Of a stretch of 64,000 nucleotides of DNA, positions 16,276 through 23,401 are shown piece after piece. Source of the DNA: Cryobacterium sp. BB307 (GTDB lineage: Bacteria; Actinomycetota; Actinomycetes; Actinomycetales; Microbacteriaceae); assembly GCF_012274275.1 (NCBI RefSeq), contig NZ_JAANZA010000001.1:744001-808000 (forward strand), given 5' to 3'. The number at the start of each line of letters is the position of its first letter. The stretch's first letter is position 1. Made by a program: the position numbers and the translations under genes. The notes beneath the pieces were generated by a model that searched no databases, had not been told where the DNA came from, and was given only the letters and a program-made list of their open reading frames with translations.

Positions 16276-17124
16276 TCAGCGCTCGCGGAAGATGCTCGAG
16301 TTGGGAGCGGGGGATGGCATCGCGGTGGCGTCGGTGATGATCGGCGCTCCGGCGATCCAGTCGACAAGCTCCTTGCCGGTGATGACCTTCGCCGGATGCG
16401 GCCCGCCGGCCAGCAGGCGCGGCATCCACTCCATCGGCAATTCGCGCGCCGAACCTGCCAGTACCACGTTGCCGAACCGCCGCCCCTTGAGGATGCTCGG
16501 CTCGGCGAGCGCTGCGACGTTGCCGACCACCTCGCGCAGCGTCGCGGTCTGACCTCGCGCGAAGGCGAGGCCGGGGCCATCCGCGACGTTCACCAGGATC
16601 ACGCCGGCGGGGGCCAGCAGTGCCGCGGCGCTCCGATAGAACTCGACACTCGTCACGTGCGCGGGCGTGCGCGAACCGCTGAAGACATCGACGATCAGCA
16701 GGTCGACGGCCCCGGTCAGCCCGGGCGGCAGTCGCTCCAGCACGTCGCGCGCGTCACCGTAACGCACCCGGATCGACGCCTGACGCGACCACGGCAGGTG
16801 CTCGCGCACCAGGTCCACTAGGTCACTCTCCAGCTCGATCACCTGCTGCCGCGACCCGGGCCGGGTGGCCTCGATGTACCGCGGCAGGGTGAGAGCGCCC
16901 GCGCCGAGGTGCACCGCAGTGATCGGGCCATCCGGCAACTGGTCGATCACGTGTCCCATCCGCTGGACATACTCGAAGAACAGCTGCGACGGGTCGTCGA
17001 GGTTGACGTGCGACTGCGGCGTCCCGTCGACGACGAGAGTGAAGGATCCGGGCACCCACCGGTCCGGTTCGATGACCGCGCGGTGGCCGCTGAGCTTCAA
17101 CACTCGGGAGGGGAACTGCTGCAT
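16276..17124 (-). CDS. Spermidine synthase-like methyltransferase-fold protein
   Basis: A 282-residue Rossmann-fold protein from the ATG at 17124 (MQQFPS); two upstream in-frame ATGs are less likely. Family features are the AVHLGAGALTLPRY glycine loop, QQVIELESDLVDLVREH with the ribose-binding acidic residue, RYGDARD, and LIVDVFSGSRTPAHVTSVEFY. The last matches the aminopropyltransferase active-site strand except that the usual DxxxG spacing is altered. Such stand-alone proteins are common in Actinobacteria and may not make spermidine. It follows the CDGSH gene by 65 bp on the same strand and could belong to that operon. Confidence 0.75.
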   Translation of the reverse strand: MQQFPSRVLKLSGHRAVIEPDRWVPGSFTLVVDGTPQSHVNLDDPSQLFFEYVQRMGHVIDQLPDGPITAVHLGAGALTLPRYIEATRPGSRQQVIELESDLVDLVREHLPWSRQASIRVRYGDARDVLERLPPGLTGAVDLLIVDVFSGSRTPAHVTSVEFYRSAAALLAPAGVILVNVADGPGLAFARGQTATLREVVGNVAALAEPSILKGRRFGNVVLAGSARELPMEWMPRLLAGGPHPAKVITGKELVDWIAGAPIITDATAMPSPAPNSSIFRER

Positions 17125-17189: not shown

Positions 17190-17390
17190 TCACTCCTCGG
17201 TGCGGAATCCGGATGCCTTGTGCGTACCGTCGCAGAACGGCTTGATCGAGGAGAGTCCGCACCGGCACAGCGCGACAGTCTTCCGGTGCGCGTCGATGGG
17301 CTCGCCGTCCGCGCCCAGAATTTCGAAGTCACCGCGCAACAGGAGTGGCCCATCCGGGCACAGTTCGATCGATCCCTGTCGCTCAAGCAC
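17190..17390 (-). CDS. CDGSH-type iron-sulfur protein
   Basis: A 66-residue protein containing one complete CDGSH [2Fe-2S] motif: CRCGLSSIKPFCDGTH, giving the three Cys plus one His ligand pattern C-x-C-x2-S-x3-P-x-C-D-G-T-x-H. MitoNEET-like clusters can transfer electrons or clusters. The start is inferred as the GTG at 17390, which overlaps the glycosyltransferase stop by 8 bases; the longer open frame upstream is just the glycosyltransferase read in another frame. This short gene is easily missed. It is the third gene of an overlapping operon with the diiron protein and the glycosyltransferase. Confidence 0.85.
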   Translation of the reverse strand: MLERQGSIELCPDGPLLLRGDFEILGADGEPIDAHRKTVALCRCGLSSIKPFCDGTHKASGFRTEE

Positions 17391-18348
17391 GGCTTCGCAC
17401 CCTCGGTCGTCCTGCAAAGCCGCGCGCGCTGGCGGCGCGTTTGATCCTGGTGCCCGAATAGCGCACGCCGCCCGTGGCGCGTTGCGCCAGCGCGACCCAT
17501 GACGTGACAGCTCGTTCGGCAACCCAGAGCGGCGCCCACAATGCCGAGGTCGCCGGGAATACGGTTCTCCCCGCGCGGCGGCGCCGGCCGACCTCGGCGA
17601 CCGCCACCGCGGTGAGCGCGCCGACCAGCAATGGCAGTGGCCTGCCCCTGGTGGCGATGGCTGCGGGCAGCAGCGCCAACTCGACGGCGAGGCGAGCGGG
17701 CTGCGCGAGCGAGTCATAGGCCTGCCGCACGCGTTGATCAGCGAACTGTTCGGGCGTCGGCGGCAGCCGGCGCACATAGAGGTCGAGCGCGTTGGTCTCC
17801 CGCCCGCCGGCCGAGGTGATGGTGCGGATGAGCTCGAGGTTCTCGAACAGCACATCCCCGTCGTAGCCGCCCGTGTTCATCAGGGCGCTGCGTCGGAAGC
17901 CGAGGGTGCCCGGGTAGTCGGCGCCGAAGGCGCGATTGATCAGCATCCGGGCGGTGTCCCAGCGGGCCTGCCAGGGAAGCGGATCGTAGTAGTTCTGCGG
18001 CCGCACCAGGTCGGCGCGCTCGAGCTGCTCGACAAGGGCGCGGAACGTCACCGGCCCATACCGCACGTCGTCGTCCGCGACCACGACGAGTTCGTGCCGC
18101 GCGTGCCGCACACCGGTCATGACGCCCGCGACCTTCCCGTTGCCGCCTGGCCAGAACTCCGGCCGCATGTGTCGAACGTCGCTGGGCAGCACCTGCGCGT
18201 GCTCCTCGAACAACTCGGCCGGCGAGCCGTCGACGACGGTCACGTCCGCGCCGTTCTTCAGGTGGTGGAGGTAGCGCACCAGCTCGGGCAGCCTCGAGTC
18301 GTCCTGCCATTTGAGCGGAAGCACGTACTCGACCGGGAATCTCGGCAT
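17383..18348 (-). CDS. Family 2 glycosyltransferase, membrane-associated
   Basis: A 321-residue GT2-type glycosyltransferase. The nucleotide-sugar region includes VVDGSP, then VVVADDDVRYG with the metal-binding acidic cluster, and the acceptor side FRRSALMNTGGYDGDVLFENLEL. Two hydrophobic stretches near residues 215-260 suggest membrane attachment; the tail is very basic. The start is the ATG at 18348, which shares one base with the upstream stop (TGATG), indicating translational coupling. Donor and acceptor are unknown. It lies between a diiron-oxygenase-like gene and a CDGSH gene, an unusual setting for a GT2. Confidence 0.85.
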   Translation of the reverse strand: MPRFPVEYVLPLKWQDDSRLPELVRYLHHLKNGADVTVVDGSPAELFEEHAQVLPSDVRHMRPEFWPGGNGKVAGVMTGVRHARHELVVVADDDVRYGPVTFRALVEQLERADLVRPQNYYDPLPWQARWDTARMLINRAFGADYPGTLGFRRSALMNTGGYDGDVLFENLELIRTITSAGGRETNALDLYVRRLPPTPEQFADQRVRQAYDSLAQPARLAVELALLPAAIATRGRPLPLLVGALTAVAVAEVGRRRRAGRTVFPATSALWAPLWVAERAVTSWVALAQRATGGVRYSGTRIKRAASARGFAGRPRVRSRA

Positions 18349-19364
18349 CAGGCGGTCACCTGCTGGCGAAGCGACGATTGGCCGGTTGTCCACGCGGCGA
18401 GGATGCGCTCGCCGACGATGCCGTCGATGGTCAGGCAAGCGGATGCGCCAAACAGCACGTCATCGAGCAGTTCCGGTTCCGCCTCGATCAGGCCGCCGGC
18501 GAGGTGGCGCGCCGCGATCTGCTCGTGGACGGCATCCGCTTCGACGTGTTCGTCGAAGTACCAGGTGACGTCCTCGCCGAACCCGTTGCGTCGGAAGCCG
18601 TTGCCGTAGAGCTTGTTCGGGATCGACGAGGTCATCTCGAATGCGGCGAGATGACCGACGATGGCGCCGCGCAGGCGCCGGTGCAGCCCGAACAGCGACA
18701 TCATGTTGGCGGATGCGAGGGTGATTGCCGGTACCTGATCGACGTAGGCGCCGTAGCTGTCGTCGAGTCCGAGACCGCGCATGGTCTGCGCGAAGATGGC
18801 CGCGTGCATCCGTGCCGGGTCGCCGCCGCCGTACTCGTCGGCTTCGATCTCGACCAGGGCGGCCTTGGCCACGCCCTCGAGCCGCGGGATGGCCCACGCG
18901 TGCGGGTCGGCTTCCTTCAGTTGGTAGATCGAGCGTTGGATGAGGAATTCGCGCAGCTGCGACTCGTCGGCCTGGCGGGCGACGAAGCGGGAGAGGCTCG
19001 GACCGCCGGTGTCCGCGGTCAGCTCGAACAGCGCGTCGGCCACCGCCCGTCTGGTTGGCTCCGGTCGAGGTGGGCGCGGTACGACCTCCCGCAGCCTGGC
19101 CTCGAAGGCGGCCTCGATGAGCGCGCGGATAGCAAGGAGCTCCGGATGCCACTCCCACGCGTCCTCGACTCCGTCGATGCCCCGGTAGTGGAGCTCGTAC
19201 AGCACGAACAGCGCCACCTGCAGGTCGTCGTCGGTGAGCACGTCCTCCGCGCCTGCCACCGCCTCGGCGATCGCACCGCCCGAACCTCGTGCGTGCCGCT
19301 CCGACCGCGACAGGAGTGTGAACAGTGCATCGCTTGCATTGCCTCGCGCCTCGGGTAACCGCAT
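18348..19364 (-). CDS. Heme-oxygenase-like diiron (iron-containing redox enzyme) family protein
   Basis: A 338-residue helical protein of the iron-containing redox enzyme group, within the heme-oxygenase-like diiron oxidase superfamily. Candidate metal ligands sit in KEADPHAWAIPRLEG, LVEIEADEYGGGDPARMHAA and YFDEHVEADAVHEQIA, which match the Glu/His-rich helices of this fold. Relatives oxidise or cleave amino acids, fatty acids and N-hydroxylated substrates. The start is the ATG at 19364, preceded by a strong GGGAGGA site 6 bases away; an upstream in-frame ATG at 19403 lacks one. It is the first gene of the operon with the glycosyltransferase and CDGSH genes. Confidence 0.8.
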   Translation of the reverse strand: MRLPEARGNASDALFTLLSRSERHARGSGGAIAEAVAGAEDVLTDDDLQVALFVLYELHYRGIDGVEDAWEWHPELLAIRALIEAAFEARLREVVPRPPRPEPTRRAVADALFELTADTGGPSLSRFVARQADESQLREFLIQRSIYQLKEADPHAWAIPRLEGVAKAALVEIEADEYGGGDPARMHAAIFAQTMRGLGLDDSYGAYVDQVPAITLASANMMSLFGLHRRLRGAIVGHLAAFEMTSSIPNKLYGNGFRRNGFGEDVTWYFDEHVEADAVHEQIAARHLAGGLIEAEPELLDDVLFGASACLTIDGIVGERILAAWTTGQSSLRQQVTA

Positions 19365-19543: not shown

Positions 19544-19645
19544 CCTGTTATGCAGGACATTCGGTCTCGTTCGGGCCCGGATCCCAATAAAGCCGCCCCA
19601 GAAGGCACTATCTCCTGCACAACAAGGGATGTCCTGCACAACAGG
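19544..19645. repeat. 102-bp palindromic element, TGCAGGA-type, copy 2
   Basis: Arms CCTGTTATGCAGGACAT (19544-19560) and ATGTCCTGCACAACAGG (19629-19645) pair at 16 of 17 positions. The right arm is partly duplicated: TCCTGCACAACA occurs at 19613-19624 and again at 19632-19643. The arm core ATGCAGGA is shared with the element at 16188-16267. It lies upstream of the rpoB promoter and could also shield rpoB from other transcription. Confidence 0.6.

Positions 19646-19906: not shown

Positions 19907-23401
<3,495 letters not shown>

Follow-up and report, generated by a model that had tools for sequence, protein, structure and literature searches.

What does a heme-oxygenase-like diiron oxidase (HDO) do in the company of a glycosyltransferase (GT) and a small [2Fe-2S] protein of the CDGSH, or mitoNEET-like, family when all three are encoded by overlapping genes? 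The question is raised by a stretch of 64,000 nucleotides from Cryobacterium sp. BB307 (contig NZ_JAANZA010000001.1, positions 744,001 to 808,000), hereafter called the window, and it reaches beyond this strain: little is known about the reductants that HDOs use in nature. A preliminary description, made from the sequence of the window alone, had proposed a small biosynthetic or modification pathway. Here, we find that the conserved unit is the pair of HDO and CDGSH protein and not the trio, and we propose with moderate confidence that the module performs a stress-protective, O2-dependent oxidation in which the CDGSH protein is the partner of the oxidase. The HDO fold and the CDGSH family were already known; the new element is an HDO with a CDGSH partner that is tied to stress by its context. 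No publication linking HDO and CDGSH proteins was found in the open-licence literature that was searched.

An operon of three overlapping genes and its diiron oxidase

The operon comprises the following genes (positions counted from the first letter of the window):

18348-19364, minus strand: HDO-type diiron oxidase gene, 338 amino acids (Pfam PF14518, ligand alignment, structure model)
17383-18348, minus strand: GT2-type glycosyltransferase gene, accessory member, 321 amino acids with a hydrophobic C-terminal part (Pfam)
17190-17390, minus strand: gene of a single-motif CDGSH [2Fe-2S] protein, the proposed electron donor of the HDO, 66 amino acids, GTG start (PF09360)

The HDO and GT genes meet in the sequence TGATG, while the GT and CDGSH genes share the eight bases GTGCTTGA. 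The three overlapping genes of the preliminary description were thus borne out by the coordinates and by Pfam matches that all exceeded the cut-off, namely Haem_oxygenas_2 (PF14518, E 2.1e-60), Glyco_tranf_2_3 (E 2.5e-09) and zf-CDGSH (PF09360, E 2.2e-19). The genome contains one match each for PF14518 and PF09360. Gene fusions among the three were not seen in any of the loci examined, none of the three proteins gave a PADLOC match to an anti-phage defence system, and virus-borne copies were dismissed, given that 31 pattern matches in viral contigs included no relatives.

A structural model of the HDO, built on an alignment of 25 homologues, was confident (pLDDT 93.9, pTM 0.92) and adopts the heme-oxygenase-like helical fold of the HDO superfamily. 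Its nearest solved folds, also recovered by Foldseek, are HrmI (Z 34.7; rmsd 2.4 over 317 aligned residues), SznF (28.9), RohS (28.5) and FlcD (25.5). Profile alignment placed E151, E177, H187, E243, H273, D277 and H280 of the window protein on E189, E215, H225, E281, H311, D315 and H318 of SznF with a constant offset of 38, and SznF E189 is presumably the extra ligand of that enzyme. All seven residues are kept in 81/81 sequences, i.e. the window protein and its homologues in 80 named loci, as are the further polar residues D153, R161, K167, R229, H238 and R259. Of at least 586 confirmed places, the 80 best make up the named loci, which therefore lean to close relatives; 33 different genus or isolate labels are represented, with a large share from the Arthrobacter group. 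In SznF, E215, H225, E281, H311, D315 and H318 are described as metal-binding and essential (PMC11705231). Three histidines and three carboxylates are reported for most HDOs, and about a quarter have a fourth carboxylate like SznF (PMC13108848). The three histidines and the carboxylates expected of the superfamily are all present in the window HDO, which thus holds a predicted 3-His/4-carboxylate diiron site, and the full set of metal ligands that the preliminary description wanted to see in the predicted fold is complete.

Two HDO copies per genome were noticed in G273 (L159, L207) and on contig C33 of G428. CDGSH and GT genes lie beside one of the two copies in G273 and neither lies beside the other.

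The conserved unit is the HDO-CDGSH pair

In a sample of 198 genomes of the order, HDO was found in 58, CDGSH in 65 and both in 56 genomes (Fisher p 4e-37), and the two genes lay at most 1133 bp apart in all 56 co-bearing genomes. The remaining HDO genomes are G032, in which the HDO contig measures 3,089 bases, and G185, a 76%-complete assembly; a profile search for CDGSH returned nothing in either. The same linkage was evident in the named loci, where CDGSH lies within 3 kb of HDO in 77/80 cases. The exceptions are L066, with CDGSH approximately 8 kb away, and L062 and L076, which break off within the GT gene or shortly after it. Among the 80 loci and the window, the gene order HDO-CDGSH is the most frequent (47), followed by HDO-GT-CDGSH (23), HDO-GT (3), HDO-CDGSH-GT (3), HDO with a divergent CDGSH gene (2), GT-HDO-CDGSH (2) and HDO-GT with a divergent CDGSH gene (1). 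Outside the order, we examined 52 of the 58 HDO genomes of a phylum sample, and 36 of these carry CDGSH within 3 kb of HDO.

The cluster motif of the CDGSH protein is complete in 78/78 sequences (window and named homologues). With a single motif of the type CxC-x2-S/T-x3-P-x-CDGxH in a small bacterial protein, the partner matches the type 4 CDGSH proteins. Pairwise protein distances of HDO and CDGSH correlate with r 0.55 (maximum of 1000 permutations 0.13), a value that shared ancestry alone could give, and the mean net charges are -18 for HDO and +1.6 for CDGSH. Together, the fold model, the complete ligand residues and the linkage uphold the earlier notion of an HDO-type diiron protein next to its own [2Fe-2S] protein. 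The expected co-occurrence of all three families proved correct in part, given that HDO and CDGSH occur together far beyond chance, whereas the GT is only accessory.

Accessory partners of the pair

The GT gene lies within 3 kb of HDO in 31/80 named loci. Its product matched three GT2-type Pfam families over the cut-off, and a PDB profile search led to a single family-2 transferase, 6yv7, and its relatives. The residues D92-D93-D94, which constitute a DxD-type motif, are invariant in 18/18 sequences, and the motifs LFENLE and QRxRQAYD as well as the hydrophobic C-terminal part are also conserved. On a quick FastTree tree of the HDO proteins, GT presence changes 24 times, compared to a mean of 25.4 and a minimum of 19 after shuffling; the presence of the gene has no phylogenetic signal and hence must be gained and lost very frequently. 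All GT genomes of the order sample possess HDO (12/12, p 1.7e-07), with adjacent genes in nine. A strict dependence of GT on HDO was rejected: it holds in the order sample and fails in the phylum sample (14/20). We judge as right the earlier suggestion that the GT may act on the product of the HDO.

Four loci of one genus (L204, L205, L206 and L208; f34/g177) carry close GT relatives without HDO; two of these loci also have SDR-like and DUF4383-like genes at a distance of a few kb at most. In G060, a stray GT gene adjoins a manganese catalase gene. The GT match of L093 (2656-3642, Paenarthrobacter sp. PH39-S1) is broken into two pieces, perhaps by a frameshift or in a decaying gene.

A different accessory gene was found in streptomycete plasmids (L139-L142) and in families f21 and f22, which we would label streptomycete-like and mycobacteria-like, respectively. 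There, HDO and CDGSH are accompanied by an MTS/PrmA-like (PrmC-like) methyltransferase that contains an NPPY motif and that some records assign to the HemK2/MTQ2 family. Within 3 kb of HDO, the 52 genomes from outside the order contain CDGSH and methyltransferase (20), CDGSH and GT (6), GT alone (3), methyltransferase alone (1), CDGSH alone (10) or none of these (12). GT and methyltransferase were never found together (0/52), and the methyltransferase is absent from the named loci (0/80). We read the two enzymes as adding alternative caps to a single product or to several related ones, although clade effects may contribute to the pattern.

On plasmid p5 of Azospirillum argentinense (L201, 3470-5217), an HDO-cupin gene with a domain make-up like that of SznF is overlapped by the gene of a Rieske [2Fe-2S] protein, so that CDGSH is not the sole kind of small [2Fe-2S] protein to adjoin an HDO. 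In L154 (7986-11460, G561), where gene picking was rough, no CDGSH was found in the locus, and the HDO gene lies approximately 180 bp from a gene for a 735-amino-acid haem peroxidase on the same strand.

Stress-related neighbours and promoters

Several families associated with stress recur around HDO in the 80 named loci, although these are raw counts without a matched genomic control. Manganese catalase was found in eight loci of six genera, four of them with a same-strand gene at most 2 kb away, a YbdK-type ligase in 13 (six genera), DUF4383 in 13 (six labels; same strand and at most 2 kb away in 11), CsbD in seven (six labels), DUF3618 in seven, an HbpS-like protein in eight (two genera only) and CinA in four. 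The counts of SDR (14) and zinc-dependent alcohol dehydrogenase (12) mean little because both are large families. On a Kitasatospora plasmid, no more than 10 kb separate the pair from genes for a SigB/SigF/SigG-type sigma factor, for phosphatases of the PP2C and SpoIIE kinds, and for a STAS protein, CsbD, YbdK and universal stress proteins, and two SigB/SigF/SigG-type sigma factors lie within approximately 4 kb of the pair on a Streptomyces plasmid. No such stress island surrounds the pair on two other annotated plasmids, one from Curtobacterium and one from Streptomyces NBC_00984, and the 64 kb of the window contain no catalase operon with HDO.

The promoters of family f22 point in the same direction. 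A loose SigF-type motif (GTTT-N-GGGTA type) precedes 10/14 HDO genes, compared to 0.29 expected from mononucleotide shuffles and 2/14 on the opposite strand; eight of these ten motifs are positioned 61-65 bases before the estimated HDO start. The strict form of the motif was found seven times vs. 0.01 expected. In a mixed phylum set, the motif was present in 4/26 cases (opposite strand 2/26). HDO faces the CDGSH-methyltransferase pair in 10/14 f22 loci. This layout is as expected from genes of Mycobacterium smegmatis: in a sigF mutant, MSMEG_1771, a methylase gene, MSMEG_1772 and MSMEG_1773 are reported to be down by about 4-6 log2 units, 1771 and 1773 each being preceded by a SigF motif (PMC4694148, PMC5445863), and MSMEG_1773 is named with no function given in two other reports (PMC7390352, PMC5656591). 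These three genes are probably the mycobacterial counterparts of the f22 module. A search with the published M. smegmatis promoter matched 0/396 genomes, so that we infer their identity with the HDO, CDGSH and methyltransferase genes of f22 from the layout.

Proposed function and alternative explanations

According to the mechanism that we favour, the CDGSH protein would pass electrons one at a time to the HDO, thus generating the diferrous state, and O2 would then react to a peroxo-diferric species that may oxidise a small polar metabolite. The most likely target would be an amine or guanidine nitrogen, because the HDO is close to SznF, RohS and HrmI and has invariant polar residues. The product may then receive an optional cap, added by the GT in this and some other lineages or by the PrmC-like enzyme in those genomes that are streptomycete or mycobacteria-like, and could help the cells to survive stress from oxidation, drying or the stationary phase. 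The stress role is suggested because of the neighbouring genes, the SigF-type promoters and what has been published on the probable counterparts in mycobacteria. More tentatively, and with less than moderate confidence, we extend this proposal to the Actinobacteria as a whole: their type 4 mitoNEET-like proteins may largely be dedicated HDO reductases, and the pair may make an oxidised and subsequently glycosylated or N-methylated protectant of the general stress response, working alongside catalases.

A number of observations weigh against a dedicated, stress-related pair. Nine genomes of the order sample carry CDGSH without HDO, and 16/52 HDO genomes from outside the order lack CDGSH within 3 kb; a genome-wide search found no CDGSH in ten of these 16, and six carry it elsewhere (in G221 approximately 7 kb away). 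The pair is therefore a strong habit and not an absolute rule, and distant HDOs must use something else. Six GT genomes of the phylum sample, all of one genus, are devoid of HDO. The SigF-type motif was not enriched upstream of the f22 methyltransferase genes (1/12 vs. 3/12 on the opposite strand), was absent from the f21 HDO genes (0/9, with nine of ten HDO places read) and was found before the HDO genes of Micrococcales in 2/79 named and 0/29 order loci. The flanks of the window operon are not stress genes, and the genome of the window encodes no SigB/F/G-type sigma factor over the cut-off (best TIGR02980 match 130.4 bits vs. 234.35), so that control must differ in this genome and the stress role there rests on the relatives.

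The main rival is a rubrerythrin-like activity: with CDGSH as the source of electrons, the pair would turn O2 or H2O2 into water, and the GT and the methyltransferase would act on unrelated stress products. The Acinetobacter HDO DtpC is reported to limit H2O2 in dried cells and to be co-transcribed with the catalase gene katE (PMC13232832), and this explanation could also account for the manganese catalases in 8/80 named loci, the haem peroxidase gene next to HDO in L154 and the stray GT gene at the catalase of G060. However, six polar residues beyond the ligands are invariant in 81/81 HDO sequences, as would be expected for an enzyme with a defined substrate, and a GT or methyltransferase gene lies beside HDO in 30/52 genomes from outside the order. 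Characterised HDOs are described as acting mostly on fatty or amino acids (PMC13108848), and DtpC gave no protection against acute peroxide, its authors leaving the synthesis of a small molecule possible (PMC13232832). We regard scavenging as rather unlikely.

Two further explanations receive little credence from us. The CDGSH protein might supply iron or clusters to build or repair a labile diiron site of the HDO instead of donating electrons, which would agree with the reported lability of the diiron clusters of many HDOs (PMC13108848) and with descriptions of mitoNEET in Fe-S cluster transfer (PMC8825830). The Rieske gene that overlaps the Azospirillum HDO-cupin gene argues against this, as does MboB, the dedicated partner of the HDO MboA, which is an electron-transfer protein (PMC13185094). 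Improbable, too, is a classical operon for a specialised metabolite without a particular tie to stress. It would fit the patchy distribution of HDO (58/198 genomes), the kinship of the oxidase with natural-product enzymes and the tailoring enzyme in some loci, but we see no larger complement of biosynthetic genes that recurs around the module: in a rough gene count, the commonest additional family among the neighbours was DUF4383, present in 11 of the 80 loci. Nor does this explanation account for the stress-type neighbours and SigF-type promoters in relatives. In place of the trio of the preliminary description, the conserved unit is the pair, and neighbours and promoters in relatives point to a stress role more than to a classical biosynthetic cluster.

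Genomic site of the operon

The operon is flanked by two genes that we judge to lie outside the module:

16276-17124, minus strand: spermidine-synthase-like gene, a core gene of the family
19907-23401, plus strand: open reading frame of 1164 amino acids, by its sequence presumably rpoB

The spermidine-synthase-like gene, whose ATG (17124) is separated from the CDGSH stop codon by 65 bp, had been considered as a further step of the pathway. This candidate fourth member was ruled out: the gene is present in 36/40 genomes of the family, is a neighbour of rpoB in relatives without the operon and was not found in the named loci (0/80; loci of up to approximately 21 kb). When 19 loci of relatives were read for about 1.5 kb on each side of the gene, the start of rpoB adjoined it in nine, and HDO, GT and CDGSH were present in none (0/19). 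The operon of the window thus sits between two genes that are adjacent in relatives, for which an insertion is the simplest account, and the spacing of 65 bp is therefore incidental. In L153, a locus from outside the order, a spermidine-synthase-like gene lies approximately 5 kb from HDO.

Between the HDO gene and rpoB, three TCCTGCAnAACA-like copies, two direct and one inverted, were noticed at 19544-19645 and possibly represent an operator or a structured leader. A search of the region from 12 to 28 kb of the window for structured RNA gave no match that reached the gathering score.

Comparison with known systems

The fold of the window HDO is shared, across the greater part of its length, by the N-oxygenases SznF, RohS and HrmI (Z 28 to 35). 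All seven ligand positions are common to SznF and the window protein, and RohS also has a glutamate at the position of E151, where HrmI has a phenylalanine in the profile alignment. In contrast to SznF, which has a C-terminal cupin domain, the window HDO has no Pfam domain other than PF14518. The identity to the three enzymes is only 15-22%, and a likeness in activity is suggested by analogy only.

For the arrangement of an HDO with its own reductant, mangotoxin biosynthesis offers a published parallel, with a dedicated electron-transfer gene adjoining the HDO gene and MboA requiring its partner MboB; the authors of this 2026 study call the two perhaps the first characterised dedicated pair of HDO and reductant (PMC13185094). 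The partners themselves differ, since MboB is a protein with flavin and Fe2S2 cofactors that works with NAD(P)H, whereas the 66-amino-acid CDGSH protein has neither a flavin domain nor another Pfam family, and MboA is described as a 3-His/3-carboxylate enzyme (PMC13185094).

A precedent for the stress role is DtpC, which protects dried cells. Its genetic tie to a catalase may have a counterpart in the manganese catalase genes of 8/80 named loci, and the HDO ligand residues of DtpC are required for protection; its mechanism is given as not known, and its authors state that no other HDO had previously been linked to such stress (PMC13232832). The word CDGSH is absent from that paper, and we liken the two systems by description and not by sequence. 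The SigF-dependent genes MSMEG_1771-1772-1773, likened to the module by layout and not by sequence, start with a methylase gene, which is followed by MSMEG_1772 and then by MSMEG_1773, itself preceded by a separate SigF motif; 10/14 f22 loci show this arrangement, and the three genes differ from the window operon by the lack of a GT.

Finally, the CDGSH protein of the window resembles the single-motif, bacterial type 4 proteins of a structural survey from 2011, which described the role of these proteins as yet to be understood (PMC3174974). The terms operon, neighbor and heme oxygenase do not occur in the text of the survey, and the HDO partner appears to have gone unnoticed there; a Clavibacter protein is among those listed (PMC3174974), and the Clavibacter loci L069 and L079 carry HDO-CDGSH. 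The linkage joins three questions, the reductants of HDOs, the role of CDGSH proteins and the mechanism of DtpC, into one system that can be tested in harmless bacteria of the laboratory. With the pair recurring across many Actinobacteria, often near stress genes, it offers a testable answer to the role of bacterial mitoNEET-like carriers and suggests that common Actinobacteria of soil and plants may make a stress metabolite that is yet to be discovered.

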